Shown here piece after piece: positions 4,370 to 52,668 of a stretch of 64,000 nt of DNA. Under the pieces are notes generated by a model, which was given only the letters and a program-made list of their open reading frames with translations, was not told where the DNA came from and did no database searches. Made by a program: the position numbers and the translations under genes. This DNA comes from Chryseobacterium sp. R2A-55 (GTDB lineage: Bacteria; Bacteroidota; Bacteroidia; Flavobacteriales; Weeksellaceae), in the NCBI RefSeq assembly GCF_021401085.1, contig NZ_JACBFP010000001.1:372001-436000 (forward strand), in the 5' to 3' direction. Position 1 is the first letter of the stretch; the number at the start of each line of letters is the position of its first letter.

Positions 4370-4370
4370 A

Positions 4371-18872: not shown

Positions 18873-18904
18873 CAAAAATACAAATTATTAACAACGAAGT
18901 TCAA
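18873..18904 (-). promoter_or_regulatory. Predicted promoter for the pglF-like gene
   Basis: On the minus strand TTG (18902-18904), a 21-base gap and TATTTTTG (18873-18880) fit the Bacteroidota TTG/TTTG-N19..21-TAnnTTTG pattern. The box lies in the 111-base gap before the pglF-like gene, leaving a leader of roughly 70 bases. Confidence 0.5.
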
Positions 18905-18908
18905 TAAT

Positions 18909-21907: not shown

Positions 21908-24900
21908 TTACTTGATTACCTTCCTGGTGGTGATTTTTCCACCCTGATCAATTCTAAAAATATAGACTCCTGTGGTCATCACTGAGGAATCAATGATTGC
22001 CTTGGTTTTCTGAGGGGCATCCTTATAAATCATCCTTCCCAGAAGGTCATACACTTCCAGACCGGTGATCTTATTGGCTTTTGCTGCCACCACAAAGTCC
22101 TGCCCATCTTTGTACACCATCAGTTCATCTTTGACAGCGCCTTCAGTTGCCAAGACCGCTCCCGGTTCATACATCAACTCAAATCTGCCCGTACTCTGAC
22201 CTGCAGTGATGGAAAAGGTATAGCTGCCCTCACTCAGATTGGTGACGATGCCGGTGAGGTGGTCTTTCAGGTAAACATTTTGACCGCTTGCAAAAACTCC
22301 TTCCTGATCACCCAGTGAAATGGTATAATTTCCGGATGTAAAGCTATTCACTCCTACCATCACACGGTCTGACTGCGAAAACGGCGCCCGCCCGTTAATA
22401 GCCACCGCGGTTTGGACTGCGAAGGTGTAAATATCATCGGAACTGTTGGATGTTACACTGTCATCCAGCGAAAAATCATTATTACCGGTTGGAAAATACA
22501 CTACTGCCGTCATGAGTTGAATTCCGCCAGGCGTATTGAGTTTAAGCCAGTAACGGTCTTTGGTGCTGCTCTTTCCAAAAAATCCGGGACCTGAATTGTT
22601 ATCCGAACGGTAGGCATTTTTGAAATCCAAAGTCGCCCCGTTGGCCGTACTTTTTGCACGGATCATAAATCCGGAACCCACTTTTACGAACTGATTAGGA
22701 ACACGTACCGGAATATAGCCATTTGATGTTGCGGCACCCACTCCTGTACCGCTCACCGCATTATATCTCGCATAACTGACTCCAAGATAAGCTGATCCCT
22801 GTTGGACAAATATGGTATTCCCCCTATTGTCCCAGAAAGAATAAGTAGGGTCTATTTTGGAGTTATTGTCGTCATAAAGCGCATCAATATCAAGATCCGA
22901 GGGATAGGGATTCCCGACCAAATTGTAACCATGATTTACGGTAGGATTGGCGGTAGTGTACGCAAGCGGATACTTGAGAATTCCGTTAAACGGAACACCT
23001 ACAAAACTGGCAGTCACCGTCGGACCAGACACCGCTGCGGTAGAAGGTTCTTTCAGCGCAAGCGCACGACCCTGGATATTGGCTCCGCTTGAGGCATAAA
23101 ACATATTGGTCGCTTCCGAGTGGTAAACAGCTTCTGGTGATCCCGCATAAATAGTTTTGAGATTACCTCCGGCAACCGGTGAGGAAACGTAATTGTACTG
23201 CTTTCTTTCCGGCGAAAAAGTAAACGCCCTTTTCACTATTACATTCCCTTGGTTTACCGCATTGTCATTCACCTGGATCAGGTTACCGTCAGACTCTATG
23301 GTAAGGTCACCGTTATTCGTAACGCCATTTTCGACTTCCAGAAAATGATTGGCACTTACTGTCAGGGAACCGCCACTCAGCACAGTACAGCTGCATGCTT
23401 TGATATTCCCGTCAGACGTGTTGTAATTTCCTGCAATCACTGCATTTAGACCGTTTCCGTCGGGACGACCTTTAGTCCACGAACCGGTGGGAACAGTTCC
23501 GGTATATACAGAATCCTCCCCTACCGCTACCGTTGCCGAGGAGCCCGCTGAATTAGTACAGGTTCCGTTGGAGACGGATACAATATTCAGTGTTTGATTT
23601 ACGGCAGCCGACAAAACTGTTACCGTTGCTTTGCCGCTACTGTCCAATACCACCGTAGTTTGATTGATGCCATTGATATTGTAAGTGACCGTTGCGCCTG
23701 CTGTTCCTGTCAGTATAAATACCGCATCGGCATTTTTGCAGATTTGGTTATTGCCTGTCACGGAAGCGGTGGGTAAAGCGCTGACCGTAACAGTAACTGA
23801 ATTACTGATGGTAGTCCCGCAACCGTTCGTCACATAATATTGAAGCTTTTTACCATGGTCTGCAAATGTAACAGCATAAGGAACGGTCAGATTGGCGAAT
23901 ACCCCGCTGCCAACTCCGGTTTCCAGTTGCCAGCCTTGAGCAGTAACTGCTGAACCGTTTGCCGTAACTGCAGGCGTGGCCGGATTCAGGGATCCTCCGG
24001 CACATAAAGCGGTTGGTGCTGCGATTGCAGAAACTGTTGGCTTGTCATTCACGGTCAGTGTAACCTGATTGCTCGTGGTAGTCCCGCAACCGTTCGTCGC
24101 ATGATATTGAAGCTTTTTACCATGGTCTGCAAATGTAACAGCATAAGGAACGGTCAGGTTGGCAAATACCCCGCTGCCAACTCCGGTTTCCAGTTGCCAG
24201 CCTTGAGCAGTAACTGCTGAACCGTTTGCGGTAACTGTAGGCGTGGCCGGATTCAGGGATCCTCCGGCACATAATGCTGTTGGCACTGCGATTGCAGAAA
24301 CTGTTGGCTTGTCATTCACGGTCAGTGTTATCAGGTTGCTCGTGGTAGTCCCGCAACCGTTCGTCGCATGATATTGAAGCTTTTTACCATTGTCTGCAAA
24401 TGTAACAGCATAAGGAACGGTCAGATCGGCGAATACCCCGCTGCCAACTCCGGTTTCCAGTTGCCAGCCTTGAGCAGTAACTGCTGAACCGTTTGCGGTA
24501 ACTGTAGGCGTGGCCGGATTCAGGGATCCTCCGGCGCATATTGCTGCTGGCGCTGCGATTACTGCAATTGCTGGCTTATCAGATAGGGTTATATTTGCAC
24601 CGTTATCAGTTCCCACAACATTAGGATTACTGCTCACTACGCGGATCCGGTAACCGCTTCCTGCAGGAGTTCCGGCCGGAATAGTGGCTGAAATTGTTCC
24701 TGCGGTTGTCTGAGTTAACGAACCTATATTTGTTGGCGAAGCAAAGCTTCCTGTGGAATTAGATAATTGTGCGGTAAAAACATTTCCAGAGTTGAAAATT
24801 CCTTCAATTGTGAAAGGCACTGAAACCGATGAGCCAGCGCAATTGGGCGACACCACGGTTCCGGTTACAATTTTCTGTTTCTTTCCGGCAAAAACAAAAA

Positions 24901-26731: not shown

Positions 26732-26781
26732 ATTTGTGTTTTTCAAAAGAAGGAATGTAGGTTTTGAAGTGACCCATACCA

Positions 26782-27001
26782 CTAAACACCTTCCGTATCA
26801 TCTGTTAAGGAAAGCATTTTTAATAATTTCGGCGTTAAAAGTCGGTGCAGTCTGTAAACCACATGACAGTCATAATGCAGTTTAGTGAACTGCATACCGT
26901 AAACTGGTGATAAGAAAAAAGGGAAAGGAGCCAGTGCAGACAGCATGCCGTGCAAATACAGCAGAATACCCGCCACTTTGGTAAGCGTAAATTTTTTTCA
27001 T
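26782..27001 (-). pseudogene. Leader ORF with signal-peptide-like frame broken at an A7 run
   Basis: An ATG at 27001, 27 bases after a strong -7 box, is followed by seven A residues. Read as written it gives a 39-codon frame ending near 26882. With one A fewer it would read MKKFTLTKVAGILLYLHGML and continue about 72 codons to a stop at 26782, with an N-terminus typical of a secretion signal. The part after about residue 35 does not look like a folded protein. It may be a decayed 5' end of an older secreted gene or a frame-switchable leader peptide of the downstream T9SS gene; a sequencing error in the homopolymer is also possible. Confidence 0.35.
26875..26895. other. Perfect 8-bp hairpin in the leader of the T9SS gene
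   Basis: ATGCAGTT and AACTGCAT flank a 5-base loop (TAGTG). The hairpin lies about 145 bases before the ATG at 26731, inside the predicted 290-base leader. No T-run follows on the minus strand, so it is not a classical terminator. Confidence 0.45.
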
Positions 27002-27028
27002 TTTGTGTTTCGGTATTTTTTTTTGCTG

Positions 27029-27060
27029 CAAATATAACCCGCTGACAAACACGATGCAAA
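27029..27060 (-). promoter_or_regulatory. Strong Bacteroidota-type promoter with long leader
   Basis: The minus strand shows TTTG (27057-27060), a 20-base spacer and TATATTTG (27029-27036), a full consensus match. Transcription would begin near 27022, giving roughly 290 untranslated bases before the T9SS gene at 26731, or about 21 before the leader ORF at 27001. Confidence 0.65.
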
Positions 27061-29901: not shown

Positions 29902-30160
29902 TATTTTGTGTTTTTAGATAATTATAATGGACAGGTATTTATTGGTGAAAAATCCCCACCGAAACGATAAGGCAGATCACCGCTGTTTCAAATCCCTTTT
30001 TCAGCAGGGACTGTGAAACCTAAAATTAATGCACTGAACTTGGTTTAGGAAAATGGAAGGTTCAACTTCACCACCGTAGATCCGGCAAACTTCTGATGTT
30101 GTTGATGTATTTTTTTCTTCATAAGCTATTTTATTTAAACTTAAAAATAATCTTATTTCA

Positions 30161-30180
30161 TTTGTATCAATACAAATTTA
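30161..30180 (-). promoter_or_regulatory. Palindrome overlapping a -7 box upstream of the 838-aa T9SS gene
   Basis: TTTGTAT and ATACAAA face each other across two bases (30161-30176). On the minus strand TAAATTTG (30173-30180), a -7 consensus match, overlaps the palindrome. A -33 match is not evident. The arrangement is what an operator over a promoter would look like, about 270 bases before the gene. Confidence 0.35.
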
Positions 30181-30406
30181 CGCTAATATTCTGCACCTTT
30201 CATTAATTATTTAAGCCGATTCATTAAAAAGGGTGAAAACACCCTTTCCAAAAACAAAAAAAAATTTATGCTTCCTACAAAACTTAGAGAAAAATATCAA
30301 CTTCTGCATGCTGTGCATTGAGAACTCTGTCTGGAAACAATAAGCGGAAGCGCCCTTGTCTGGTCTGCAACAGGTGCTTTTAAGTATCATAAAATTTATA
30401 TAAATT

Positions 30407-30442
30407 GTTTGTCCCTGCGTTTTTTTCCACGCAAGGACAGAC
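30407..30442. other. Strong imperfect hairpin
   Basis: GTTTGTCC-C-TGCGT pairs with ACGCA-A-GGACAGAC around an 8-base loop, giving 13 pairs (one G-T) with one internal mismatch. It stands in a spacer with no adjacent coding frame and no T-run, so it could be a structured RNA element or a recombination site. Confidence 0.4.
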
Positions 30443-30641
30443 TAATCCCCCGTGTTTTTGAAATCAACTAAGGCGCTTTCGCCGGTTGATGATATACAAA
30501 GGTTAAAAAAAATCAAAGCGTTATGAATTATCGCTAAATGCACAACAGGTTGTGCACATGCAAACCGGCTTTGAAGCCTGTTTCAACTGGCGGTGAAAAC
30601 TTTAGAAATTTGGTTGTTCCAAAGACATTTGGTGCCCATGA

Positions 30642-30848
30642 TCATTTTCGCAGCCCCGTTTTGCGGGGTTTTCGCAAAGTATTGGCGGGATCGTAAGTAC
30701 CTGAAGCGGGCAATGTCTCATAGGGGTTTACCGAATAACCGGCGGGTAAAGTCGGCATAAACTGCAAGGGGCTATTCTTAGGGGTGGGAGGAGCCAGCCT
30801 TGAAACCCCAATGTCTTGAACCTTTTTCTTCCCACTGACATTTACGGA
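30642..30848 (-). pseudogene. Protein-like frame without start codon, probable gene remnant
   Basis: The minus strand is open for 68 codons from just after a stop at 30849 to a stop at 30642. It contains VQDIGVSRLAPPTPKNSPL, MPTLPAGYSVNPYETLP and SGTYDPANTLRK. The residue pattern looks like real protein, but there is no initiator near its beginning. I read it as an eroded fragment; I cannot name the family. Confidence 0.3.
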
Positions 30849-31338
30849 TTATGGCGATTCATCCGCCGATACGTCCGTGTTCTAAAAGCGGTTAACACAC
30901 TGAAAAAGCGGTGCTTATTTGTGATCCGGTTCCGGGGTTCATCATTAATATCTTGATTTTATCCCTATTTTCCAGGATTGACAATACGGAATGTTTTCTG
31001 GTGCTCAAGTGGACAATTTTCCGGTGAACTCTGTGAACAGCAAGAACGCATATATTGTACCTTTTCAACTTAAACACTTTTTAAGACGCCATAGTTTCTT
31101 CCCTCTATAAAATTAATCGGGTCTGATTTAAAGGACTTTCCTGTATAGAACAATATGAATTTCCCAAAAGCTCATGACTTTGAATGGCACATTAACCTAC
31201 CCACTGATCAACAACAAATCAAAATCTCCAATCACCGGAAAAACTTGGGACGCCACAGCAAATCACCATGTGGAACAGAAGAAACTGACCAGAATGCTCC
31301 ATCCCCTTTCTACGCAGACTGAAGTCCATCGACAAAAG

Positions 31339-31370
31339 AAAAAAGACCCGGGGAAAAATTTCCCGGGTCT
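31339..31370 (-). terminator. Rho-independent terminator of the 1590-aa T9SS gene
   Basis: AGACCCGGG (31344-31352) pairs perfectly with CCCGGGTCT (31362-31370) around an AT loop, followed on the minus strand by a T-run. It lies 24 bases after the stop codon at 31394. Confidence 0.8.
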
Positions 31371-31393
31371 TTAAAGAATAGGATTTTAATGAT

Positions 31394-36166: not shown

Positions 36167-37955
36167 GTATTATAGTTTTAGTAATTGTACTTTTTTAAAA
36201 AATTAATCTCCTTTCTTGAAAATTTCATAATTTGAAAAACAGCTGCCAAAACCAGGAATCAAACTTAACATAATGATTAACAATAGGTAAAAATAGAATA
36301 ATTAGTTTAATATCCAAAAAAGCTTAACGAAACCAGCAATAAATTAATAAAATTTTAACAAAAACAGCAACAAAAAAAAACAATCAAGGTTACCTTGACT
36401 GCACCATGACCCTGCAAAAATTATGCAAAAATCATCAATTCATGAAATTATGATAGAAAATCGATAAACATAACGGACTTCAGTCATCACAATACTAATC
36501 TGCTGATCACCCCAAAATTAAATCTGATCAGGATACGCCGCAAAAGGACTCCCGGCTTTTCCCGGAGAAATATTGGCCGGGGCAGCCTCAGAAAAATAGA
36601 AAAGTCATTCAGTGCAGACCGATCAGTGATCTATCGGTACCCCATTTGGACTCATCATTTACTTTTAAGAATAATTGGGAGAAACCTGGAATTGGTTAAA
36701 AATTCACTATTCCGGATTGCATATGTTTGAAGTCAGAGTCAAAAATGAAACAGGCGGTCGGGAGCCTACAGTTTACCAGCCGGCTAAATCTGATGAGCAT
36801 CAGGAAAAATTTTCACCCGCATCTGGTGATCCGCTGAAGTAAAAATCTGTTATGAGCCGCCCGAAAGCAGGGTCCGTTCAGAGCAAATTTCGACTCTTTG
36901 GTGAGCCCCTTTCAGTCCTGTTTATAGGGACGGCGTATGACAGTATTCAAATTCCAAATCGATCCCTGTCGCCGGATTCAGCAGTTAAAAAAAGATCCGG
37001 TGAAACAGGATGGCGTATTCCAGCATTGCCAAACCATAACCAGCATGTTCTTCCGCCGGTTATCCTCTGATGGACCGGAGTACGGAAAAAGTTCAGAACA
37101 GGAAGGGAGCCGGGAGGAATAAGGTACGGAACGAAACGGCAAAGTGGAACGGAAGTGAGCAGTGAACCGGCTTCAGGAGTTCAAACCTCATTTCGTGGTC
37201 CGTGGGTGTAAAAAAAGATATCGCCGGTCTCTTTCATGTATTGGAAAATACGGATCAAACAGTCAACTGAACAATGAAAGAACAGAAAAAATTCGTTTTC
37301 AGCAGAAAATTCGGCGCAATGATAAGCAGCGGATTGACCTGATTTTGGAGACGCAGCCACCCGGAACGTTCCAAAGAACATTTTCCAAGCGGCTGCTGTA
37401 TTAACTCCCGGGGAATTACCAGCGGTCTTTTTGACCTAAGGCACCCCCTTTTCTGCCCTGAAGAGATTAGAAAAAACAGTAACAAAAACGGGCATCAAAA
37501 ATTCTGTTAAAGTCTTCAAACCATTTCTCTGACGCGAGAAAAGTTCGTGTACTGCAATGAAGAATCGCAATAATTTTTCATCATTTGTGCTTTTCGCTTC
37601 AAAAATACATTAAATATCCCGGTTTTCATTGTTTATTTTTGTCCAAAATGAAAAAAACAGTGAAAACACCTATTTTGAAACCTCAGCATTTTCACCTTTA
37701 AATACCCCTTCTTACCCGATGAAATCTAAATAGTATCCCTGTAACACCCAGGTTTTACCGCCTTCCGCCGGATGATACAGGAATACTGATTTTCCGGAAC
37801 ACCCAGAAAACAATCATCACAAGAACGGTCCCATTCCAGCTTCAGGTGAAGGAGGATTTAAAAACTCCCGGAAGCGCATGACCTCTAAAGAACCGGTTCA
37901 CAAAAAAAAGCCGGACATTCATCCGGCTAATTTATAGGTGTTGATTTCAGGTTTC
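36167..37955. other. 1.8-kb spacer between two T9SS genes
   Basis: Only short frames of unprotein-like composition are present. A -7 match (TAAGTTTG, minus strand, 36260-36267) could serve the 1590-aa gene but lacks a -33 partner. Around 37080-37160 the plus strand is purine-rich with GGAACGAAACG, which recurs in the spacer at 53.3-53.6 kb. The terminator of the 1612-aa gene is at 37902-37928. Confidence 0.5.
37902..37928 (-). terminator. Rho-independent terminator of the 1612-aa T9SS gene
   Basis: AGCCGGA (37909-37915) pairs with TCCGGCT (37922-37928) around a 6-base loop; on the minus strand the stem runs into eight T. The same terminator, slightly altered, follows the 2109-aa gene at 46285-46309. 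Confidence 0.85.
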
Positions 37956-39343
37956 TCACTTCAGGATTTTCCTGGTGGTGACCTGTTCGCCGTGGTGAAT
38001 CTTCAGCAGGTACATGCCGTTGCTCAGAGGGTTTCCGTCGATAACAGCTTTGGTACTGTTCGGACGGAGGTTCAGGATCAGCCTTCCCGCACCGTCAAAC
38101 ACCTCGATCATGGTGATCTTTGTGTCCGATGCCTTCACCACAAAGTCGGTGCCGTCCCTATACACCTGCAGGTTTTCTTTCACTTTTCCGTCGGTTGCCA
38201 GAATAGTCTGAGGTTCATAGATGATTTCAAACCTTCCCGTGGTTTCGCCCGCACCGGCCGAGAAGTTGTAGCTTCCCTCGCTCAGGTTGGCCACCGTGCC
38301 GGTCTGGTTGTCTTTCAGGTAGATGTTCTGGCCGTTGGCGAAGATGCCCTCCGCCTGGTCGATGGCTATTGTGTAGCTTCCGGACTCGTAATGCCTGCTT
38401 CCCAGCGGAACCCTGTCGCTCACCGCAAATGGACTCCTGCCGTTGATGCCGATTTTCAGTCCATCAGTCACACTGTACAGCTCATCAGATCCGCCCGAGG
38501 AAAAGGAGTCATCCGGACCGAACCCGTTGCTGCCGCCCCCGAAATACACCACCGCCATCTGTACCGCCAGTTGCCCCGGAGTAACCATCTTCAGCCAGTA
38601 CCGGTCCATTGCCGAACCTCCCCTGCCGAAGAATGCGTCATCCTCAAATTCTTTGGAGCGCGAATTATTATAGAATTTCAGGGTTTTGGAAGGCACGCCG
38701 ACAATCCGGGCAAAAAAGCCCTGTCCTACTTTAACATATCTTCCCGGAATCTTTTTGCTCGCCCCGGAAGCACCCGCGTCCGATGTTGCCGCGGTGCCGG
38801 TGGCGGACTTCACATTATAGCTCGCATAGGAGTTTCCGCTGTAATTAGATCCCATCTGGCTGTAGGTCGTATTTTTATAATTGTCCCAGAACCGGAAGGT
38901 GGAGTTCAGGTTGCCGGCTTCACCACCGTTCGTGTTATAGAAGGTCAGAAGGTCGAGGTTTGAAGGATACGGATTCCCGATCAGGTTGTGGCCGCGCATC
39001 GTGGTTCCCGGAGTAGTGACTCCCGGTGCGGAGTTGACCGCATTGATGGAAATCTCTCCATTGGCCGGAGGTCCGGCAAAGACCGCGTAGAAAGGGCCAT
39101 TGCCCGTCAGCGGCTCTTTCACCGCCAATCCCCTTCCCGCAATGTATGCGCCGGAAGATTCACCGAAATAGTTAGTACTCTCTATATAGTATTGCACACT
39201 CGGCGAACTCACCGGGTTGCCGGAACCGTCCCGGTAAATATTGGTCTTCAGGTTGGCTCCCACCACAGGCGAGATCAGAAAGTTATACTGTTTCCGGTCG
39301 GAAGAGACATTGATGTTTCTTTTTACCGTGATGCTGCCGGAGT
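37902..39343 (-). repeat. Near-identical 1.4-kb duplication, copy 1 (partner 46285-47726)
   Basis: With a constant offset of 8383 bases this stretch aligns with 46285-47726, with only scattered substitutions. It covers the terminator, the T9SS sorting domain and the whole shared module. Identity stops abruptly after GATGCTGCCGGAGTT, where the N-terminal parts of the two genes diverge. Confidence 0.9.
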
Positions 39344-42300
39344 TTTCCGGATTCGGATCATCGTTGATCTGGATCAGATTGGCATCGCTTTCCACCACGA
39401 TATCGCTTCCCGGATCCACCTTGATTTGGTTCCGCACCGTCACAGGACTTCCTGCCTTGATGTTCAGCACCGAATGATTGGTAACCGAAAGAGCACACAC
39501 ATTTAAACCTGCTCCGGAAGTGGAGTAATTCCCCTGTATTTCAGCTGAGAGATAATCAGCAGAACCAGGCACTATACTCCAGCTGCTTCCGTTCCAAACG
39601 GTATTTTGTCCCACAATTAATTCGCCGCTCCGGTGAAGGATTCCATCCCAGATGCCACCGTGATTAACATTTGAATCATTGGCGAAACCCCCGTAAACAT
39701 AATCGCATGTGCCGTTTTTATAGCGGAAGGTGTAGTAATAAGTTCCGCTGGAAGGAGGCATAAAGTCAAACTTATATTCTTCATTATGCAGTTGCCCGTC
39801 GCCAGCATCCACTTTCCCGTTGTACAGTGCCGGCTGCCAGTTCACCCAGGATTCAGGATGGGAATTGACGGTGCTCCAGCCAAACTCTGCAGAAAGTCCC
39901 GATGACTGCGCAGCCTGATCTGTTTTTCCCCCAATAAATACCCTGCCATAGACCGTGTAAAGCATATTTGCGCAGGAGCTTGCGCTTCCTGGCCATTGGA
40001 GGTTGGCAAATGAAGCGGGCAGATCAATATCAAAACTGAGTACATTGGAATACTGATCTTCACAAGCACCACTCTTCACTCTTGCGCGGAAAAATGTTTT
40101 GCTCAGCAGGTTCTCCGTCGTATAGCCGGCAGACTCAGCTCCTGCAATATCCGTAAAAGCGACCCCGTCTGAAGAGCTTTGCCAATGAACATTTCCTGTG
40201 TAATCTTCCAGCGAAAGGGTGACAGAATTTCCCTTGCAAATGCTTCCGGTTACCGCGGAAGCAGCAGTTCCTGCCACAGCAGCCACATCCACCGTAAGCA
40301 GTCCGCTGACGTTAACGGTGTCGTCCCAGAATCCGCCGCCTCCGGAATGATAACCACCGTAAGACCACGGACAGGTCGGTCCACTGCGGTAGCGGAAAGT
40401 ATAATAATAAGTTCCCGCCACGGATGGCGTAAAATCGTATTTGAATTCATCATTATTTCCCTGCTGACTGCTGAATGAAGCATTTTGCCAGGTCCACCCC
40501 GCTCCCGAAGGATTGCTGTCGGAGGTGCTGTAACCGAACTGAGCCTCGATTCCTGCTCCCGCGCCAGCCGCTTCGGTAACACCGGCAATATAAATCTGAC
40601 CATAGGCGGTAAACGGACTCCCCAGACACAGATTGCCGTTTTGGGGATTATGGAGATTGGCCCAACCTACTGTGGTGCATGTAACCAACACATTAAGCGT
40701 ATAATCTTCCGTTTCTCCATATTCAAAAGTCTTATCATAATCAGAGTCATTTAACTGATCATCCCATAATACAGAGCGAATTCTTAATCTTTTTGGACCA
40801 GAATTTGTTGAACTGGGCACCGAAACAGTAAAATTTAGAATCTGATTTCCAGAAGTCGCATTAGGAGATATGCCAATGAACTCGTCAGCATCTGCAAAGT
40901 CGCCATCATCATTCCAATCAACCCATGCAGCAATTTTTCCTGAATTGTACGGGGAACCTAAATCTCGATAGGTGACTTTTAATGCATAGGAATTGCCCGG
41001 AGTCACATCTGTGCTCAGGTTATATTTATTGTAACCTGTGGGAGTATTCCGAAAAATAACGGAAGCATTCGACGCGTAGTTTGTTATGGCAGTAGTATTA
41101 TTAATGCTTCCTATATTAACATTACCAATTTGAACATAACCAACATCACCAATCGCTGCAGCGTTCGCATATTGGTATGCTGCATGCTTATACTTGTCTT
41201 CTGCTGTATATGTGATCGTTAAATAGGGCTTATTCACCTCTGTATATCCTGCTATAACATAATATCTCTGAGTAGTACCTGTACCCCAGGAAGGACTAAA
41301 ACTGACAGCAAAGAAAGCTGTATCATTTCCCGATTTCTTTTCAATTTCATCCAAAGCCAAAGTATTTGATCCAGGCTTTAAATCCACAGTAGTGTAAGCG
41401 CCGGCATTTACGTTTGGAATATAATTGTATGCACCCGTACTGTTAGTACTGGCGGTAATTGCATTATAAAGAGTTGTATAATTATTGACCCAAATTAATC
41501 GGGAAAGATCAAATGCAGTATGGCCGATGTTGATGTTAGATGTTCCATTACTGCCGTGGGTCCCCCCTTTGCTATTTATGTACAAAGAAATTCTTGCATC
41601 GGTGACACCTGATAACGAAGGCAACGAGGTTAAATTAAAAGTTGCCCAGCCTCTGTACCAACCACCAGAATAACCAGCTGCCATATTCCCGCTGCCTCCA
41701 CCCGTACTGTATGTCTGTCCTGAGGAAAAGTTAGTATTGAATGGATATGCCGACACAGTAGGATCAATTGCTATAGGATAGACTCTACTTTCGCTGTTTA
41801 ACCATGAAACCTTCACTTTCGTATAGAAAGTGACGGAGTTTCCTTCTTGACTGAAACTTATTTCTGGATTCATTCGTGCTGGCAGACCAATTACATTTGG
41901 ATTATAACCTTCAATAATTGCAGGCGCACTGTAACTGTATATGACCTGACCTTTCCTGTCAACTACAAAAATTCCAGAAATTTTTTCATATTCTTTTTTC
42001 AGTTTGTTATATTGTTGCAATCCTTCAACAATTTTGAAATTTTCAGATATTTCAAATTCCTCAGCAAAAACCAGGTACTCAGCATTATGGACAATTTCAC
42101 CCAAAGAGTTCTTATCAGGAATAATATAATTCAGTTTTCTTTGTCCTGATTTTACGGTAAACTCCGCAGAAATCTTTCCAAACAAATGATCATAGTACAC
42201 CTTGTCGCCCTCTATTCTCGCCGCCACATCAGCCGAGGTTACCGGTTGAACTTCCGCGCCGTTGACTTCCCAATACATTCTCGTATTCAGAAATTCCCGG

Positions 42301-42794: not shown

Positions 42795-42957
42795 TCTAAA
42801 AAATTTGGGGCATTAAAAAATGCAAATGCCAGTGCGGTCAAAAAGAAGCATATCTTCTCCCGCCTACTTTTACGGAGCAAAAAAGGCTAAAAGTTTAAAA
42901 CAACTGGCTGATTTCTTTGTGAAAAAAACCAGACAATATGCTGAAAATGAATTGAAC

Positions 42958-43956: not shown

Positions 43957-44512
43957 ATTTTAAGTAATTTTTAGTAATGGAGTTATGTTCAGACATCTCC
44001 CGATCAACAAAAAAATGTCGGTTCAGAGATCTTCATCTAAAAATTTCTTACTTCGGAATATTGAACTCGCACCATGATTTGGAGTAAAATTTTAAAAGCT
44101 GGCCAATAATAAGCTCGGTAAAAAATTCATCGCAAATAAATCAAGATTTAACGATATGTTAAAGATAATGTCTATCCATTTTCGGTAATATAGAAAGAAA
44201 GGAAAGAGTATGTCTTTCATAATCAGTGTTTTAAATTTTTCTTTTAGCACCCTTCTGCGACCGCATATATCGCCCTACATATCCATCCGACCCCAATGAT
44301 CAGGTTCTTTCTCCGGGAAAACTGAGCCAAAAAATTCTATAAATTTGATTTATCTGCTGTTTTTTTGTATCCCCATCACTTGGTTAACAATAAAAGTTTA
44401 TATTTGAATTATTGATAATTTTAAAAACATTGCATTGAATATTCAAAATATAGTTCATCAATCATATAGAAGAAATTCACCTTTTTCCGGTAAAACCATT
44501 CTTTTCCGAAAA
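43957..44512. other. Divergent spacer between a T9SS gene and the AraC-type regulator
   Basis: This AT-rich region drives the two divergent genes. It carries the regulator's promoter at 44380-44406. No ORF or other element is supported. If the regulator acts on neighbouring genes, its sites would be expected here. Confidence 0.55.
44380..44406 (+). promoter_or_regulatory. Predicted promoter of the AraC-type regulator gene
   Basis: TATATTTG (44399-44406) is a perfect -7 box; TTG (44380-44382) lies 16 bases upstream, slightly closer than the usual 17-23. Transcription would start near 44413, about 100 bases before the ATG at 44513. Confidence 0.5.
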
Positions 44513-46111
44513 ATGAATGGATGGGGATTTCTGTGTGTTTTGTGGAGCAGCATTTTTTTTGCGCAGCAAAGCATCACGAAGGAAACGATCAACAGACAGT
44601 TTGATACGGCACTGCATTATGTGACCTCTGACCATCCTGAAAAAGCGATTCCTATATTAAATGAAATCGGCATCAACAGCAAAAAAATCGGATACAGTTC
44701 TGCCATCGCAAGGGTAGGAAACGCTTTGGCCATTGTTTATTTCAACAGTTCAGATTACAATAAAGTCATCAATCTCAGTGAAGATTACCTGAAGGCAGCA
44801 GAAGAAGTAAAGGATTATGGCAAAATGTCTCAGATATACCGGATGAAGGGTTGCGCCTATTCCGAACTTGGATTAATGAAAAAAGCAGACGAGGAATATG
44901 AACTGGCATTAAAATGTGCCGAAAAGATTGCACCGGGAGACGGAAAGCATTATGCGTTGAGCGTTATCTACGGTAACCTTGCAACCCATGCCATCAAGAG
45001 CGAAGCCCAATGGGATTCGGTGTATGCCACCCTCAGCAAAAGTATAAAGGAAGCCAAAAAAATCAACGAGTACGAAAAGGACTATATTTCCAAAAAATAC
45101 AGCCTGATCGCCTATGCTTATATTATCCTTGCCAACGAATATTTCAAGGCAGATGACCAAAAGAAAGCAGGCGATTATTACTTGAGGGCGCTGCATATCC
45201 ATCAGGAAAAACCCGTGCCGCTCGTGGAAAAGGTGGTACTGATCAACGAACTTGGCTCTTTTTATTACAGTCTTAAAGAGTACCGTAAAGCAGTGAAATA
45301 TGCAGAGTACGGACTGAGCATGGAGAAAAAAGCAAGTTTTCCCCAGTTGAGGAAAGGGCTCTTTGAAACACTTTCCAAATCTTACCTGGAGCTTCAGGAC
45401 ACCGAAAAATCAAGAAAATACTTTGATCTATTCACGTCGCTCAATGACAGCATTTCTAAAATTGACCGAAAGGTTTTGAGCAGTACCGTTTCTAAACAGG
45501 AACAGGAATTCCTACACCTTATCGAAAGGCGAAATTTTACCTACTTGCTGCTTAGTCTGGTACTCGTGGTAGGTGGCATTTCCTACTTTCTTTACTATAA
45601 AAGAAAAAAGCAGCTGCAGATCCAAAAAATTGAAAAACTCCTGAAAAACCTGAAAGACAGGCAGAGCCAAACCAAGGCAGATCCGGTACTTGAACACCAG
45701 CTCGATAAAGCAATTCACAAAGAGGAAGATATTGCAATAATGCCACGCGATGCGGAAGAAAAACTACTGGAGAAACTGCATACCTTCGAAGAGGAGCAGC
45801 TCTATTTGGAACGCAAAGTCTCACTCTCCTATGTGGCCACAATCATTGAAACCAACACCAAGTACCTGTCTTACCTTATTAAAAAGCACAAGCAGAAAGA
45901 CTTCAACAGATATATCAACGACCTGAGAATTGAATACATTGTTCAGAAAATAAGTGAAGATCCCACTTACCGACAATATAAGATTAATGTACTGGCAGAA
46001 GAAAGCGGTTTTTCTTCACATTCGAAATTTGCAACAGTTTTTAAAGCCAATGTGGGAGTATCCCCGTCTGAATTCATTAAATATTTCAGCAAAAAAAACA
46101 GTTCGCAGTAA
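44513..46111 (+). CDS. TPR sensor/AraC-family DNA-binding regulator
   Basis: The frame is open from a TTG at 44435, but the ATG at 44513 gives a good N-terminal signal (MNGWGFLCVLWSSIFFAQQ), so 532 aa are annotated. Residues about 25-330 are tetratricopeptide repeats (GKMSQIYRMKGCAYSELGLM, ALHIHQEKPVPLVEKVVLIN). One membrane helix follows (TYLLLSLVLVVGGISYFLYY) and then a Lys-rich coiled linker. The C-terminal ~110 residues are an AraC-type double helix-turn-helix: SYVATIIETNTKYLSYLIKK, FNRYINDLRIEYIVQKI, INVLAEESGFSSHSKFATVF, GVSPSEFIKYF. This is a one-protein membrane regulator, with TPRs outside and the DNA-binding part in the cytoplasm. It is the only plus-strand gene among the T9SS genes and may control them. 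Confidence 0.85.
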   Translation: MNGWGFLCVLWSSIFFAQQSITKETINRQFDTALHYVTSDHPEKAIPILNEIGINSKKIGYSSAIARVGNALAIVYFNSSDYNKVINLSEDYLKAAEEVKDYGKMSQIYRMKGCAYSELGLMKKADEEYELALKCAEKIAPGDGKHYALSVIYGNLATHAIKSEAQWDSVYATLSKSIKEAKKINEYEKDYISKKYSLIAYAYIILANEYFKADDQKKAGDYYLRALHIHQEKPVPLVEKVVLINELGSFYYSLKEYRKAVKYAEYGLSMEKKASFPQLRKGLFETLSKSYLELQDTEKSRKYFDLFTSLNDSISKIDRKVLSSTVSKQEQEFLHLIERRNFTYLLLSLVLVVGGISYFLYYKRKKQLQIQKIEKLLKNLKDRQSQTKADPVLEHQLDKAIHKEEDIAIMPRDAEEKLLEKLHTFEEEQLYLERKVSLSYVATIIETNTKYLSYLIKKHKQKDFNRYINDLRIEYIVQKISEDPTYRQYKINVLAEESGFSSHSKFATVFKANVGVSPSEFIKYFSKKNSSQ

Positions 46112-46284
46112 GGTGGACAGTACCGACCTATTTACTGTATTCTGCAAATTTACCGCAAATGAGGCAATGAACTTCTGCCGACTTTCCAAAATAACCCAGA
46201 GAAAGCCCCTCATCAGTACGGTTGAGCGCCTGATATTTTGATGTTCACTTCACAGCTTCGGTCAGACGACCATGAAAAAATCAC

Positions 46285-46309
46285 AAAAAAAAACCGGACT
46301 TTCATCCGG
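46285..46309 (-). terminator. Rho-independent terminator of the 2109-aa T9SS gene
   Basis: CCGGA and TCCGG (46294-46309) form a 5-bp stem, followed on the minus strand by nine T. It is the slightly degenerate twin of the terminator at 37902-37928 and belongs to the duplicated segment. Confidence 0.8.
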
Positions 46310-47726
46310 CTAATTTATAGTTGTTGATTTCAGGTTTCTCACTTCAGGATTTTCCTGGTGTTGACCTGTTCGCCGTGGTGAATCTTCAGCATGTACATGC
46401 CGTTGCTCAGAAGGTTTCCGTCGATAACAGCTTTGGTACTGTTCGGACGGAGGTTCAGGATCAGCCTTCCCGCACCGTCAAACACCTCGATCATGGTGAT
46501 CTTTGTGTCCGATGCCTTCACCACAAAGTCGGTGCCGTCCCTATACACCTGCAGGTTTTCTTTCACTTTTCCGTCGGTTGCCAGAATAGTCTGAGGTTCA
46601 TAGATGATTTCAAACCTTCCCGTGGTTTCGCCCGCACCGGCCGAGAAGTTGTAGCTTCCCTCGCTCAGGTTGGCCACCGTGCCGGTCTGGTTGTCTTTCA
46701 GGTAGATGTTCTGGCCGTTGGCGAAGATGCCTTCCGCCTGGTCGATGGCGATCGTGTAGCTTCCGGACTCGTAATGCCTGCTTCCCAGCGGAACCCTGTC
46801 GCTCACCGCAAATGGACTCCTGCCGTTGATGCCGATTTTCAGTCCATCAGTCACACTGTACAGCTCATCAGATCCGCCCGAGGAAAAGGAGTCATCCTGA
46901 CCGAACCCGTTGCTGCCCCCCCCGAAATACACCACCGCCATCTGTACCGCCAGCTGCCCCGGAGTAATCATCTTCAGCCAGTACCGGTCCATTGCCGAAC
47001 CTCCCCTGCCGAAGAACGCATCATCCTCAAATTCTTTGGAGCGCGAATTATTATAGAATTTCAGGGTTTTGGAAGGCACGCCGACAATCCGGGCAAAAAA
47101 GCCCTGTCCTACCTTAACATATCTTCCCGGAATCTTTTTGCTCGCCCCGGAAGCACCCGCGTCCGATGTTGCCGCGGTGCCGGTGGCGGACTTCACATTA
47201 TAGCTCGCATAGGAGTTTCCGCTGTAATTAGATCCCATCTGGCTGTAGGTCGTATTTTTATAATTGTCCCAGAACCGGAAGGTGGAGCTCAGGTTGCCGG
47301 CTTCACCACCGTTCGTGTTATAGAAGGTCAGAAGGTCGAGGTTTGAAGGATACGGATTCCCGATCAGGTTGTGGCCGCGCATCGTAGTTCCCGGAGTGGT
47401 GACTCCCGGTGCGGAGTTGACCGCATTGATGGAAATCTCTCCATTGGCCGGAGGTCCGGCAAAGACCGCGTAGAAAGGACCATTGCCCGTCAGCGGCTCT
47501 TTCACCGCCAATCCCCTTCCCGCAATGTATGCGCCGGAAGATTCACCGAAATAGTTAGTACTCTCCATATAGTATTGCACACTCGGCGAACTCACCGGGT
47601 TGCCGGAACCGTCCCGGTAAATATTGGTCTTCAGGTTGGCTCCCACCACAGGCGAGATCAGAAAGTTGTACTGTTTCCGGTCGGAAGAGACATTGATGTT
47701 TCTTTTCACCGTGATGCTGCCGGAGT
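46285..47726 (-). repeat. Near-identical 1.4-kb duplication, copy 2 (partner 37902-39343)
   Basis: This stretch aligns with 37902-39343 at a fixed offset of 8383 bases. Differences are scattered single bases, for example GTGTTGACC here versus GTGGTGACC there (VNTRKILK versus VTTRKILK). The match ends at the same codon of the shared module in both genes. Confidence 0.9.
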
Positions 47727-50700
47727 TCGCGGCGTTATCATTCACCTGGATTAAGTTCCCTTCAGACTGTACCACGAAATGATCCTGACTGCCGAGATTA
47801 ATCACCTCATAATTTGATGCAACATAGTCATTGGCTCTGATATTCAGATTATAATTTGCATTCAAAGTCACCGTGCAGGCTTCGAAGCTTCCGTGAAGTG
47901 CCGTATCATAATCCGCGGCGATAATCACCCTGGATTTCTGATTAGGTGCACCCTTGGTCCAGAAAGTCCCGTTCCAGGTAGTGTCCACATCTTTAAACTG
48001 AATTGAATTGGATGCCGTGTAACAGGTTGCTCCATCTTCGCGAACCTGACAATAAAATTGATAGTCATTCAGTCCGGCTCCGGACAAGATAGACAATTCG
48101 GAAGTATTTGCACCCTGGATTTGGGCATTGTCGGTTACCGGATTCCATACATTGGTTCCCGGAGAGAGCATATACCATCGATAAGCAAGCATTTTCCCTC
48201 CCGGAAACCCTTCGGTCGCCGTAACCGAGAACTTCGCTTTGCAGGACAGTGGCGGTTGTGGCTGCGCAGTAATCTGTGGCGGATTCCCGGCAGGCAGAGC
48301 CGGCGCCACTCCTCCCGGCAGGCAATCCGTTGACGATACCGGCGTTACGGTCCAGGAAGAAGCGGTGTAAGTGGGATGATTACCCAGTTTACCCGCCCCT
48401 CTTTTCAGATAATAACCCACATAATTTGGAGCTTGCACTTCATCATAAACCGTAGTGCCGCTCGCATTGGTCAACTGAAATTTGTCATCGTCGTTAAATC
48501 CTGACATGATCGTCCCATTTCCTGTTGATGCCGGTGATGAACACTTATTGGCTCCGGCAACACGAATGATTTTCAGTTCACCCGGCAAAATATTTCCGGA
48601 AAGCCCATTAGTGTATTTTGCCAATAGTTCCGTGGAAGACGGTGCCCGGTAAATCTCATAATTGGCAAGATTTTTCGCGGAAGCTGTTCCGTTAAATATG
48701 GAGATATAACCTCCACTTCCAACTTTTTCATCATAAACTTCGTAAAGGATCAGGTCGGTCGCCAATGTTCCGGAAGCCGCTTCACACCCGAAGAATTCTT
48801 TAGTAATCACAGTGAAAGGCTGGGTAAAAATACATCCCGTAGCCAAACGAACGACCAGGTTTCCGTTTTCGGCACCGGCCGGAATGGTCACTTCCATTTG
48901 AGTCGGCGAAATGGGATTGGTATTAAGCGCCACGCCATTGTATTTTACCGTGGCGCCGGTAAGATCATCCGTAGGAGTCGAAGTAATGCTCACTACGGTA
49001 TTGGCCGGTCCGGATGTTGGAAACAGCGTAAGCGAAGGGACCGAAGAACAGGTTCCTGTTCCCTGAATGACAAAGGTATAAGGGTTTTCGTTCCCGGTGA
49101 CGTCATTATTGCTGATGCTTACGGTTGCCCTTAAAACGCCGGCTGTGGTAGGATTAAATTTGATCTTAAATCCGGAACTGCCGTTAGCCGCAACAGATGC
49201 AGCCGGCTGCAGCGTCACTGTGAAATCCGAAGGATTGTCCCCTTCCAGCTTCACTGCAGGAGTTCCGGTAAGCAGAAGTGGTGAAAGCCCGAGGTTTTCA
49301 ACAGTAAAATCCTTTTCGGCTGTACTTTCCCCCAAGGAAGTGTTGAGAAAAAGCGTATTATTTAATCCCATCACACTGGTAGATCCGGACGGGATACTGA
49401 GCAAGTTTCCTTTTACATTAATTTCCGGACCGGCGGCACGAATGATATTGAGCGTATAATCCTCCACTTCACCGTATTCATATCCGGTTTGACATGGGGT
49501 TAATATAATATCGGTATCATCATAAAAATACTGCGTAGCAATCCTCATTCTGGTTAGTCCCACGGCAGCGTTAATTGGAATGGTAATTGCCAGCGGCGAG
49601 AATGCCGTAGCTTGATCAAGTCCTTCATAGGCATCACCCAAATCATAAACTTCACCACTTTCAAACGACCCGTTGCGGTTCCAATCTATCCAAGCCTTGG
49701 TATAGGTTTGATATCCCAAAGTATTTACTTTTACACTGAGGTCATATACCTCCCCGATAATAACATCGGTGGAAATCGCTGTGAAATCCGTGTACGCAGG
49801 ATTTCCTGAGGATGTATTGTCAATCGTATTGAATTTAACGTTGGTAATACCTGTTTCATCATCGGTCGCAACATTGGCTGTTGAGGAACAATAGGACAAC
49901 CCTGTAGTTTTACAGACTTGCACTCCTGAACTCCACTGGTTACTGTTGACCTCCCTTACAAATATTTTGTAGCAGTACTGGATTCCTTCTGTCAGTCCGG
50001 TGACCGTCACTGTATTCCCTGTTCCTTTATAGACCACCTGATTATTTCCTGCAAAAGCAGTTAAGGCATTATAAGCGGAGCCATCTCCTGAAGGAACAAG
50101 GGTTACAGAACCCTGGCTTGCCACCACCATGTATTCATAGCAGCCGACCGATGCAGGGACCACATTCCACGAAACCACCGAAGAAGTGGGCGCCACCGAT
50201 GCTGCAGGATTAGCAACTTCCGGTACTTTTACCGTATATTGCTGATTCCATGATCCCGGGATATTGATTCCATTCGCCCATCCGGTTTGGGTTTCCCCAT
50301 TATAAGCCACCACTTTGAACGTATATTGCTGACCTGTCGTCAATCCGGTAACCGTGGCGGAAGTTCCGCTACCTTTGTAAACGGCTTTGCCTAAATTTCC
50401 TGAAGTACCGTAAGTAGTAGCTAAATTATAAGCTGAATCAGCAATATAACCTGAAGCATTTCCCGCAGAAGTGTCTGGTTCCGATGGAACCACCGCCCCT
50501 GGAAGGGCAAAAACGATATAGCCGGTAACAGTAGCTCCAGTCGTTGGTGCCGTCCAGGAAAGAGTGAGCTGATTGTTTCCGATACAGCTCTTCAAAGTTG
50601 ATGCATTATTGGGTCTTTTATTGATAACGTGCAATGTTACGGTATTAGAAATCACCTGGCACGTTCCATTGTAAACTATTACCCGGTATTGTTTTCCTTC

Positions 50701-52668
50701 GTCCGCAAGCGTTGTTGCAGGGGTCGTCAAATTAACGGAATTCGTACCTACATTTACCCACGTTGAACTTGCAGTGTCGTAGGCTTGCCACTGTTTATTC
50801 GGAATAGGCGAGCTGGAAGTACCCACATTAAATGTTGCGGTACTTCCGTCCTGAACGGTTTGATCACTTGGCTGTGTAGTAATTGAAGGCATGGTATCCA
50901 CAGTAATAGGCGAAGAAATCTGTGTTCCCCAGCAGTTGCCATCATAACCCCGGATATAATAATTTTGAGCAGTCGTCACCACATAAGGATTAGATTTTAA
51001 TGGGTCGGCGATGGATGGAATCACAGGATTCGTCATCGAAGTCCCATTAGTCGTGGTTTGCCAATAGTAGATAACTCCCGCAGCAGGTTCGCCGGCAGCA
51101 AAATTATAAACCAGAGCAGTGCTTCCACAGCTTTTAGCAGCAGTGACAGATCCGGACGGGGTGGGCGTCCCACATAAAGTGACAAAATTCTGAACCGCAC
51201 CATAAAAATAGTTGGCGCCATCATATGCATAGGACTTGTAGGAATAGGTGGTACTGGAAGACAGTCCCGAAAGAGGAGCGTTATAGGCACCTGTAGTGAT
51301 CGCAGGAGGCGCGGTGGCCACTGCAACTTTTGTGACCCCGGTTCCGCCGACGGTTGGATTAGCGTTCACCGCATTTAAAGCATATACAAAACCTTTCTCC
51401 TGGGCAAGGGCTGAACAGCTTCCCAACCCGGTCACATTACCATTAAGAGTTGCTGAACTGGACGTAATTAGTGAAGCTGCAGCACTAGTGACTGTGGGTG
51501 AAGTGGAAACATTTACTGTCAAATTTGCTCCGTTGTTGCTTCCAATGACGGTAGGATCACTTGCTGTCACCCGGATTCGGTAACCGTTTCCTGCGGCAGT
51601 TCCTATTGGAATTGCGGCGTTAATCGTTCCGGAATTTGCAGCGGATGAAAGGGTTCCAATATTCACAGGAGCGGCAAAACTACCGGTCGCGTTGGAAAGC
51701 TCAGCAGCATACACATTTCCGGAATTGAATGTTCCGCTGCTGGTAAAAGGGACGGAAACTGAATCACCTGCACAGAATGTTGAACCTGTGATGGTTCCGG
51801 TTGAGATGGTGTGAGCTGGCAGCGTTCCAATATCCATAGGTACCGGAAAATAAACTTCCACATCATCATTATAAAGATAGGATTCATTGTTTGTACTTGA
51901 ATTTCCAATAAAAGTAGTACTGACTATATTGCTGTTATTAGCAAGTTCAGCTTTTGCCAAATCATCACCAACTAACACCCCATTTATATACAAATCAAAT
52001 GAATTAATTGCAACAGTGCTTGAAAGACCATTATAATTATAATTTAGTATTCCTACATTTCTATTATTACCGACTATCTCGATCGTATAAACCATGCCTT
52101 GACTAAATGTCGTTTCAGACAATCCATTAGTATTCCAATTTTTCCCGTTCCGATTCTGTAGGGTAACCGTACCCATATTAGTAAAAGTAAATCTAAGGCC
52201 CGTAAATACCATACTACCTGTAAAGTCTGCATTATCTGAATACATGGTACCATTTCCTTGATAAAAGGACCAAACTCCAGATTTAGCAGAATTAGTAGAA
52301 TTTGAATCCCCAAAAAGGACTTTGAATTTTGTATAAAACTCAGTCCCTCCACCATATCCCACAATTGGTGAAAATTTAGTGACACTTGCAGTTGAAGATG
52401 CTGCAGCTTTCACAAAAGCTCCGGAAGTGCCTAAAGGATTTGAAGTAATACTTAAATTAACAGGAGCATTTGGCGCAGTAGCTCCACCTCTTGCTAAAGT
52501 AGTACCTGAGCTTGGATTCGGAATAAATGTTGTCGAAGATGTTTGAGAAGTATGGGTTCCTCCTACTGTTCCATAATTTTGAAAACTAATTTGTCCACAA
52601 ACGATATCACTAAAAAAGCATATCAATAAAAATGTGATTTTATAAAACGAAAATAATTTTGTCTTCAT
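46339..52668 (-). CDS. Giant T9SS-secreted protein: LamG-like, Ig, Fn3, GEVED, HYDIN-like, lamin-tail domains
   Basis: The start is set at the ATG at 52668 (2109 aa), giving signal peptide MKTKLFSFYKITFLLICFFSDI...CGQ; a few upstream in-frame codons are not signal-like. Approximate order: 20-275 LamG-like fold, 296-390 Ig-like (close to one in the 1607-aa protein), 590-680 Ig, 686-800 and 813-919 Fn3, 929-1076 GEVED (AWIDWNRNGSFESGEVYDLG), 1079-1199 HYDIN/choice-of-anchor-D (FTVENLGLSPLLLTG), 1296-1449 lamin-tail domain (LILYEVYDEKVGSGGYISIF), 1463-1553 Ig, 1646-2025 shared module, then the sorting signal ending VNTRKILK. The N-terminal ~280 codons are strikingly AT-rich. It is likely a long surface fibre or adhesin; no enzymatic domain is seen. 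Confidence 0.88.
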   Translation of the reverse strand: MKTKLFSFYKITFLLICFFSDIVCGQISFQNYGTVGGTHTSQTSSTTFIPNPSSGTTLARGGATAPNAPVNLSITSNPLGTSGAFVKAAASSTASVTKFSPIVGYGGGTEFYTKFKVLFGDSNSTNSAKSGVWSFYQGNGTMYSDNADFTGSMVFTGLRFTFTNMGTVTLQNRNGKNWNTNGLSETTFSQGMVYTIEIVGNNRNVGILNYNYNGLSSTVAINSFDLYINGVLVGDDLAKAELANNSNIVSTTFIGNSSTNNESYLYNDDVEVYFPVPMDIGTLPAHTISTGTITGSTFCAGDSVSVPFTSSGTFNSGNVYAAELSNATGSFAAPVNIGTLSSAANSGTINAAIPIGTAAGNGYRIRVTASDPTVIGSNNGANLTVNVSTSPTVTSAAASLITSSSATLNGNVTGLGSCSALAQEKGFVYALNAVNANPTVGGTGVTKVAVATAPPAITTGAYNAPLSGLSSSTTYSYKSYAYDGANYFYGAVQNFVTLCGTPTPSGSVTAAKSCGSTALVYNFAAGEPAAGVIYYWQTTTNGTSMTNPVIPSIADPLKSNPYVVTTAQNYYIRGYDGNCWGTQISSPITVDTMPSITTQPSDQTVQDGSTATFNVGTSSSPIPNKQWQAYDTASSTWVNVGTNSVNLTTPATTLADEGKQYRVIVYNGTCQVISNTVTLHVINKRPNNASTLKSCIGNNQLTLSWTAPTTGATVTGYIVFALPGAVVPSEPDTSAGNASGYIADSAYNLATTYGTSGNLGKAVYKGSGTSATVTGLTTGQQYTFKVVAYNGETQTGWANGINIPGSWNQQYTVKVPEVANPAASVAPTSSVVSWNVVPASVGCYEYMVVASQGSVTLVPSGDGSAYNALTAFAGNNQVVYKGTGNTVTVTGLTEGIQYCYKIFVREVNSNQWSSGVQVCKTTGLSYCSSTANVATDDETGITNVKFNTIDNTSSGNPAYTDFTAISTDVIIGEVYDLSVKVNTLGYQTYTKAWIDWNRNGSFESGEVYDLGDAYEGLDQATAFSPLAITIPINAAVGLTRMRIATQYFYDDTDIILTPCQTGYEYGEVEDYTLNIIRAAGPEINVKGNLLSIPSGSTSVMGLNNTLFLNTSLGESTAEKDFTVENLGLSPLLLTGTPAVKLEGDNPSDFTVTLQPAASVAANGSSGFKIKFNPTTAGVLRATVSISNNDVTGNENPYTFVIQGTGTCSSVPSLTLFPTSGPANTVVSITSTPTDDLTGATVKYNGVALNTNPISPTQMEVTIPAGAENGNLVVRLATGCIFTQPFTVITKEFFGCEAASGTLATDLILYEVYDEKVGSGGYISIFNGTASAKNLANYEIYRAPSSTELLAKYTNGLSGNILPGELKIIRVAGANKCSSPASTGNGTIMSGFNDDDKFQLTNASGTTVYDEVQAPNYVGYYLKRGAGKLGNHPTYTASSWTVTPVSSTDCLPGGVAPALPAGNPPQITAQPQPPLSCKAKFSVTATEGFPGGKMLAYRWYMLSPGTNVWNPVTDNAQIQGANTSELSILSGAGLNDYQFYCQVREDGATCYTASNSIQFKDVDTTWNGTFWTKGAPNQKSRVIIAADYDTALHGSFEACTVTLNANYNLNIRANDYVASNYEVINLGSQDHFVVQSEGNLIQVNDNAANSGSITVKRNINVSSDRKQYNFLISPVVGANLKTNIYRDGSGNPVSSPSVQYYMESTNYFGESSGAYIAGRGLAVKEPLTGNGPFYAVFAGPPANGEISINAVNSAPGVTTPGTTMRGHNLIGNPYPSNLDLLTFYNTNGGEAGNLSSTFRFWDNYKNTTYSQMGSNYSGNSYASYNVKSATGTAATSDAGASGASKKIPGRYVKVGQGFFARIVGVPSKTLKFYNNSRSKEFEDDAFFGRGGSAMDRYWLKMITPGQLAVQMAVVYFGGGSNGFGQDDSFSSGGSDELYSVTDGLKIGINGRSPFAVSDRVPLGSRHYESGSYTIAIDQAEGIFANGQNIYLKDNQTGTVANLSEGSYNFSAGAGETTGRFEIIYEPQTILATDGKVKENLQVYRDGTDFVVKASDTKITMIEVFDGAGRLILNLRPNSTKAVIDGNLLSNGMYMLKIHHGEQVNTRKILK

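Follow-up and report, generated by a model that had tools for sequence, protein, structure and literature searches.

What is the long conserved segment that precedes the sorting signal in a run of T9SS cargo proteins of Chryseobacterium sp. R2A-55, and what might it do there? The window analysed here (the whole stretch of 64,000 nucleotides) encodes six T9SS type A proteins on its minus strand, from 21.9 to 52.7 kb, in a host genome of 2.9 Mb. The array had been read as five giant proteins that share an undescribed module of about 360–400 residues in front of the sorting domain, accompanied by a sixth that has the signal without the module, and all six reading frames are found where the original prediction had placed them (Table 1). 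The term giant suits four of the five (1590–2116 aa) and does not suit P0002 (838 aa). The sixth protein, P0006, does lack the module, as it gives no match at E ≤ 10 to a module HMM built from 76 sequences. The N-termini of the five module proteins are hydrophobic and the gaps at 29902–31393 and 36167–37955 contain short ORFs only, both as judged by eye.

Table 1. Proteins, module parts and recombining blocks of the array, in window coordinates.
Feature	Protein	Position	Strand	Description
Protein	P0001	21908 (lower coordinate)	−	1624 aa; T9SS type A, with module
Protein	P0002	27385 (lower coordinate)	−	838 aa; T9SS type A, with module
Protein	P0003	31394 (lower coordinate)	−	1590 aa; T9SS type A, with module
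Protein	P0004	37956–42794	−	1612 aa; T9SS type A, with module
Protein	P0005	46339 (lower coordinate)	−	2116 aa; T9SS type A, with module
Protein	P0006	42958–43956	−	332 aa; T9SS type A, without module
Lead-in	P0001	23285–23512	−	76 aa; predicted short stacked strands
Lead-in	P0002	28756–28989	−	78 aa
Lead-in	P0003	32804–33067	−	88 aa
Lead-in	P0004	39381–39605	−	75 aa
Lead-in	P0005	47758–47985	−	76 aa
Module core	P0001	22163–23284	−	374 aa; residues 1167–1540
Module core	P0002	27643–28755	−	371 aa; residues 383–753
Module core	P0003	31649–32803	−	385 aa; residues 1122–1506
Module core	P0004	38211–39380	−	390 aa; residues 1139–1528
Module core	P0005	46594–47757	−	388 aa; residues 1645–2032
Linker, type A sorting domain and stop	P0001	21908–22162	−	TIGR04183, 38.0 bits (cut-off 23)
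Linker, type A sorting domain and stop	P0002	27385–27642	−	TIGR04183, 34.6 bits
Linker, type A sorting domain and stop	P0003	31394–31648	−	TIGR04183, 37.5 bits
Linker, type A sorting domain and stop	P0004	37956–38210	−	TIGR04183, 38.9 bits
Linker, type A sorting domain and stop	P0005	46339–46593	−	TIGR04183, 30.5 bits
Homogenised block	P0004	37898–39344	−	98.4% identity over 1447 nt to 46281–47727
Partner block	P0005	46281–47727	−	pairs with 37898–39344
Mosaic block	P0003	31509–32807	−	identity per 60 nt to P0004 and P0005

All five regions align end to end, as had been anticipated, over 401 columns of which 135 are invariant. The core runs from NLIQ to Y.P (371–390 aa) and is preceded by a lead-in of 75–88 aa in which the similarity among the five proteins is weaker. 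When the stretch in front and the tail are included, pairwise identities range from 44 to 89%. The predicted series of motifs can be followed through the alignment, some of them with substitutions: P0002 reads RQQYN, P0004 and P0005 read FWDNYKNT, and P0003–P0005 read EGIFA, with TPGQLAVQ also replacing TP.G.Q in these three. Chance or low-complexity similarity as the source of this likeness is ruled out by the profile E-values.

The module ends about a dozen residues before the type A sorting domain in the five proteins. This domain passes the curated TIGR04183 cut-off (23 bits) in 5/5, at 30.5–38.9 bits, so that the window proteins are like other T9SS type A cargo, with the module lying outside the signal. 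PF18962 is above its cut-off in 1/5 when whole proteins are searched and in 5/5 in a six-frame search. The proteins differ from type C cargo in scoring below the 40-bit cut-off of its model, NF033708 (12.7–18.0 bits in 4/5, with P0002 unmatched); the tail of P0005 taken alone reaches 22.0 bits against this model. The host genome encodes SprA and PorU. The position of the module was followed further in 72 loci, corresponding to 80 of 425 candidates picked by two peptide patterns. A stop codon within the locus terminates 133 of the 140 distinct module ORFs, and the distance from module end to C-terminus in these 133 is 62–97 aa (81–97 aa in 132 of them). At E ≤ 0.01, TIGR04183 matches 123/132 of the tails and NF033708 128/132. 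In a second set that reaches more distant members (29 rows, which also include P0001 and near relatives), the module ends 83–103 aa from the C-terminus in 24 cases. Of the other five, two are matched only in part (212 aa) and one has a distance of 6 aa, its alignment apparently extending into the tail; in the last two, at the loci L137 and L138, 330–345 aa lie between module and C-terminus instead of a sorting domain directly behind.

Neither Pfam nor NCBIfam has a family matching inside the module at E ≤ 0.001, in the five proteins or in 76 diverse homologues. The best Pfam match within it has an E-value of 0.0051, in one member of the 76, and the best NCBIfam match one of 0.0043, from a family matched by three of them. 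When the 76-sequence profile was compared with the sequences of the PDB, two distinct proteins were found at E ≤ 1, both from Flavobacterium johnsoniae: RemZ (Fjoh_0803; PDB codes 8gl8, 8glm and 8gln) and RemA (PDB code 8gl6). The matching segments (RemZ 647–1024, E = 9.7e-115; RemA 979–1346, E = 3.7e-108) cover profile positions 2–374 of 375. In a comparison restricted to module and sorting domain, RemA and RemZ have a homologous module that is likewise placed before the sorting domain. As described in the available part of PMC10994853, the sorting domain alone is well resolved in the RemZ structure and the passenger lacks ordered density; the RemA and RemZ chains in the structure library comprise 75–76 residues, the sorting domain only. 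Given this homology and the restriction of the density to the sorting domain, the module is a known sequence with no library name and with no solved structure found. A search of the open-licence literature found no description of the module in print, which is a weak negative. The word undescribed thus holds to the extent that Pfam and NCBIfam contain no family for the region (76 homologues, E ≤ 0.001), and fails in that the region belongs to the known proteins RemA and RemZ. The module is a real, widespread domain, unnamed in Pfam and NCBIfam, within a known kind of protein. RemA is described with a lectin domain in the accessible text of PMC12618676, and in a scan of the five window proteins alone no lectin-named family matched at E ≤ 1. 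Movement and a role in gliding are likewise features of RemA, whereas the window proteins are known here from their sequence.

The five-row profile detects the module in 58/296 Bacteroidota genomes at E ≤ 0.001, and the 76-row profile in 76/296 at E ≤ 1e-5. SprA occurs in 229 of the sampled genomes, above its curated cut-off in 228 (the remaining one is without module). All 76 module genomes have SprA, and the module is found in 0/67 SprA-negative genomes (Fisher p = 1e-10, a value that overstates the independence of the 296 genomes, which are related). The module is not obligatory, since in another genus of the window's family four of the five sampled genomes have SprA and no module match. 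Copy numbers are lower bounds because the many-genome searches scored at most 6 candidates per genome. Twenty genomes have two or more copies, and for 72 of their 86 copies another lies within 10 kb, 69 of them on the same strand (a count based on 88 matches above 250 bits). Among the named genomes in the matches listed, the closest module is that of Chryseobacterium koreense, with 89% identity.

AlphaFold2 predicted lead-in, core and sorting domain of P0001 with a mean pLDDT of 92.1 and a pTM of 0.83 (105 aligned sequences), and the core alone with 91.2 and 0.90 (76 sequences). The low-confidence spots of the long model are residues 311–315 and 454–459, the latter being the linker between module and sorting domain. 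Model residues 462–534 superimpose on the solved RemA CTD (Z 12.0, rmsd 1.5 over 73 residues). A Foldseek search of the PDB with the core gave nothing at E ≤ 0.001 (best 0.10). The best VIA match of the core is a viral tail protein (Z 5.0, rmsd 3.2 over 82 residues within 243–374), with beta domains of carbohydrate-active enzymes (glycosidases) ranking next at Z ≤ 4.7. The fold searches barely test the first ~240 residues of the core, and the absence of a strong structural match to the predicted model is no proof of a new fold. Rows for alphavirus, Fc-receptor and galactose oxidase structures obtained with the long model were discarded (TM-score ≤ 0.35, rmsd ~10 Å or more).

A viral structure library contained one match at E ≤ 0.001, a 'hemin binding' protein of an uncultured marine phage (E = 8.5e-16, TM-score 0.62 of the query, rmsd 5.3). 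A 211-kb IMG/VR contig (L139) encodes at 3978–5981 a 667-aa module protein (profile positions 7–374) with an 84-aa tail; the gene adjoins a radical SAM gene, whose product is the only one of 8 scanned proteins matched by PHROGs. Phages may carry the module, to judge from this contig, whose viral status is putative, and from the phage-labelled predicted structure. Ordinary phage or plasmid cargo it is not: tblastn with the P0001 module found matches in 0/50,697 phage records and in 2/72,556 plasmid records, the latter at 26.8% identity.

The central idea of the original prediction, a fixed chassis to which different payloads are joined, is upheld by a sharp boundary of DNA identity at the module edge of P0004 and P0005. 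The near-identical block of these two genes starts 36 and 30 nt inside the respective modules and stops 58 nt past the stop codon; identity is 62% in the edge window and 25–51% per 60 nt farther upstream. Outside lead-in, module and tail, the two proteins have in common only a stretch around the GEVED domain (33%). Because the block is shared and the payloads differ, module and signal together behave as a recombining cassette. P0003 is a mosaic, with two stretches of 85–100% identity per 60 nt to P0004 and P0005 around a middle of 56–78%, and most of its sorting domain is at 48–66% per 60 nt to both. In C. koreense, P0005 has a relative that is contiguous with its payload and truncated where the contig ends; over the part of the module compared, its identity to P0005 is 82.7%, and that between P0004 and P0005 is 97.2%. 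If P0005 and this relative are orthologues, the homogenisation would postdate the divergence of the two species.

Closely similar modules with unrelated N-termini, which also speak for the chassis, occur both within and between species. In a pair from C. binzhouense and C. echinoideorum, the module is 90% identical and the match begins 92–101 aa before it, with no similarity at E ≤ 1e-3 farther upstream. Among 94 pairs with a module identity of at least 60%, 34 have no payload match and 32 have a payload coverage of at least half; the two pairs at 100% each represent a single gene present in overlapping loci, so that two genes of K. jeonii entered the count twice, and some payloads are cut at the locus edge. 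This comparison covered the 5 window proteins and 115/131 others (114 had a payload of at least 150 aa), with 16 set aside because their match started beyond profile position 14. Pieces of DNA hinted that P0001 and its C. koreense orthologue had cleanly exchanged payloads, an idea that was rejected: the protein match covers P0001 residues 5–90, 623–738 and 854–1624, on which account the payload is called remodelled. P0002 is 87% identical to its orthologue throughout, with the payload unchanged, and these two orthologue pairs speak against constant exchange. Two Kaistella ORFs of 560 and 590 codons (L025:9431–11110 and L030:5653–7422) are almost free of payload, consisting of a signal-like N-terminus, lead-in, module and sorting domain with little else; they too agree with the chassis idea. 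On good DNA evidence, the module thus appears to serve, at least in this array, as a base that the genes share and recombine. The homogenisation of P0004 and P0005 could nevertheless be neutral and might befall any conserved 3' end.

That everything N-terminal to the module differs between the proteins was an overstatement: P0003, P0004 and P0005 each contain a GEVED domain, and P0001 and P0005 have a segment of 85–100 aa in common (61–65%). Payload matches comprise GEVED, Ig-like, fibronectin type III, TIG, glycine-rich, G8 and choice-of-anchor D domains, together with choice-of-anchor J and lamin-tail-like matches below the curated cut-offs. Domains of these kinds are usual parts of surface adhesins, and the payloads are probably adhesive. 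P0001 contains three tandem 267-nt (89-aa) repeats (window 23784–24584), the second and third, in window order, being 93% and 87% identical to the first. A large N-terminal part of P0004 (residues ~70–560) is matched above the cut-offs by neither Pfam nor NCBIfam.

Of the functions considered, we lean, with moderate confidence, towards the module being a C-terminal plinth, or base domain, on which RemA/RemZ-type T9SS surface adhesins carry exchangeable payloads; surface attachment or presentation is the most plausible of the roles originally suggested. PorU would remove the sorting domain within the short flexible linker behind the module, or the sorting domain would stay on PorV. Were cleavage to take place in the linker, the module would be left as the C-terminal domain, nearest the surface, and would hold out an Ig-like, fibronectin-like, GEVED or other adhesive payload. 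The 3' gene end (the module, often with the sorting domain) would provide a homologous cassette for recombination between tandem genes, by which the base would be kept uniform while the payloads diversify. Base function, cleavage in the linker and adhesion by the payload are what we infer from these comparisons. The available parts of the literature describe that in Porphyromonas gingivalis PorU cleaves type A cargo, which can be linked to surface polysaccharide; further sources cited, likewise in part, are PMC10202324, PMC9950754 and PMC8400371. According to the accessible text of PMC12618676, SprB-HaloTag carrying the RemA sorting domain stays immobile, and the conclusion drawn by its authors is that the cargo's fate is set by the sorting domain. 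In that account, which concerns F. johnsoniae, the choice of sorting domain on SprB is by itself enough to settle whether the protein is anchored or released, so the module need not be the anchor.

Rather than presenting a payload, the module could itself bind a ligand, for instance the cell's own surface polysaccharide, and so tether the protein non-covalently, a possibility that we rate as rather unlikely. The array directly follows a polysaccharide locus, and arrays in the window's family often lie beside one. The last four genes of this locus (window 16860–21257) are look-alikes of a 4,6-dehydratase, an aminotransferase, a NeuD/PglD-type acetyltransferase and a sugar transferase, a set for an amino-sugar precursor and the first sugar transfer that we take to resemble the bacillosamine pathway. 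At least one of the four is found near the module in 23/50 genome labels and three or more in 15/50, labels among which three genomes are split and some MAGs merged. Of two further genomes of the window's family whose flanks were compared, G281 has all the polysaccharide genes in one flank, and one flank in G095 has dehydratase and chain-length genes with a weak aminotransferase match. Against this, polysaccharide genes were found in 0/16 module flanks from seven genomes of another family, as in 0/20 control flanks (from 9 genomes; two lie at arbitrary places, and the window's family contributes 4; among the 20 module flanks, one was as short as 9.4 kb), and a universal link between module and polysaccharide locus is not upheld outside the window's family. 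The near-payload-free Kaistella proteins suggest that the module may act alone, and the C-terminal part of the core weakly matches the glycosidase beta domains mentioned above; these fold matches are, however, too weak to read, with a viral tail protein as the top row. RemA, moreover, is described in the available text of PMC12618676 with a lectin domain and not as using the module region. A further gene, for a protein with TPR and AraC-type regulator parts, lies inside the array on the plus strand (window 44435–46111), between P0006 and P0005. Its product is a candidate regulator of the array, and a relative of it was found near the module in 1/72 loci.

A role in transport, be it docking to the T9SS or the folding of very long cargo in the periplasm or at the translocon, would fit the fixed place beside the signal, the occurrence of the module only in SprA genomes of the sample, and the often considerable length of the proteins (stop-to-stop median of 1,386 codons in the 78 module ORFs complete at their 5' side). 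We nonetheless consider it improbable. In F. johnsoniae, sfGFP and mCherry placed on the RemA sorting domain alone are secreted (PMC12618676 and PMC10994853, in the parts available), and the host genome has 61 sorting-domain matches at E ≤ 0.001 (56 above the curated cut-off) and five module copies. The module is missing from 56/61 of these matches, which rules it out as a general T9SS feature; general T9SS docking, one of the roles originally suggested, is unlikely in view of these fusions and of the 5/61 that carry the module. There is also no module match in 153/229 SprA genomes, and both the 838-aa P0002 and the nearly payload-free proteins carry the module. Still less probable, in our estimation, is that the module provides the coupling by which RemA-type proteins move along the cell surface. 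RemA-HaloTag that keeps its own sorting domain forms immobile and mobile foci, while the SprB fusion with the same sorting domain does not move (PMC12618676, in its accessible part), so something in the RemA passenger, the module or the lectin, may matter for movement; GldG is also encoded in the window genome. The lectin is, however, an equally good candidate, and the authors' own view of the sorting domain as decisive stands against this reading. Polymerisation into a surface fibre would suit arrays of several copies, yet no observation points that way and we regard it as very improbable.

Beyond the base domain that we prefer, a broader reading is possible, which we hold only tentatively and think doubtful: this undefined Bacteroidota domain would be a payload-independent base of T9SS adhesins that retains or couples them at the surface and, in addition, a built-in platform for reassorting binding heads. 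Polymorphic toxins exchange their tips, and the array would do so from the opposite end. The payload-free array genes, if this were true, would be acceptors or remnants of exchange. Domain rearrangement and allelic exchange are described for surface proteins of P. gingivalis in the available part of PMC5266723, where recombination likewise diversifies the surface proteins of a T9SS bacterium. The two cases differ as far as that text goes: in P. gingivalis the adhesin domains and alleles vary between strains, whereas in the window neighbouring genes have a constant C-terminal part in common and differ in payload.

In RemA and RemZ, two model cargo proteins of the T9SS, a long conserved stretch apart from the signal still has neither a name in Pfam or NCBIfam nor a solved structure that could be found. 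A profile of the module would annotate a family of surface proteins in 76/296 sampled Bacteroidota genomes, and taking module and sorting domain apart would test directly what determines how type A cargo ends up at the surface. The recombining 3' cassette offers a concrete route by which these bacteria may alter their surface adhesins.
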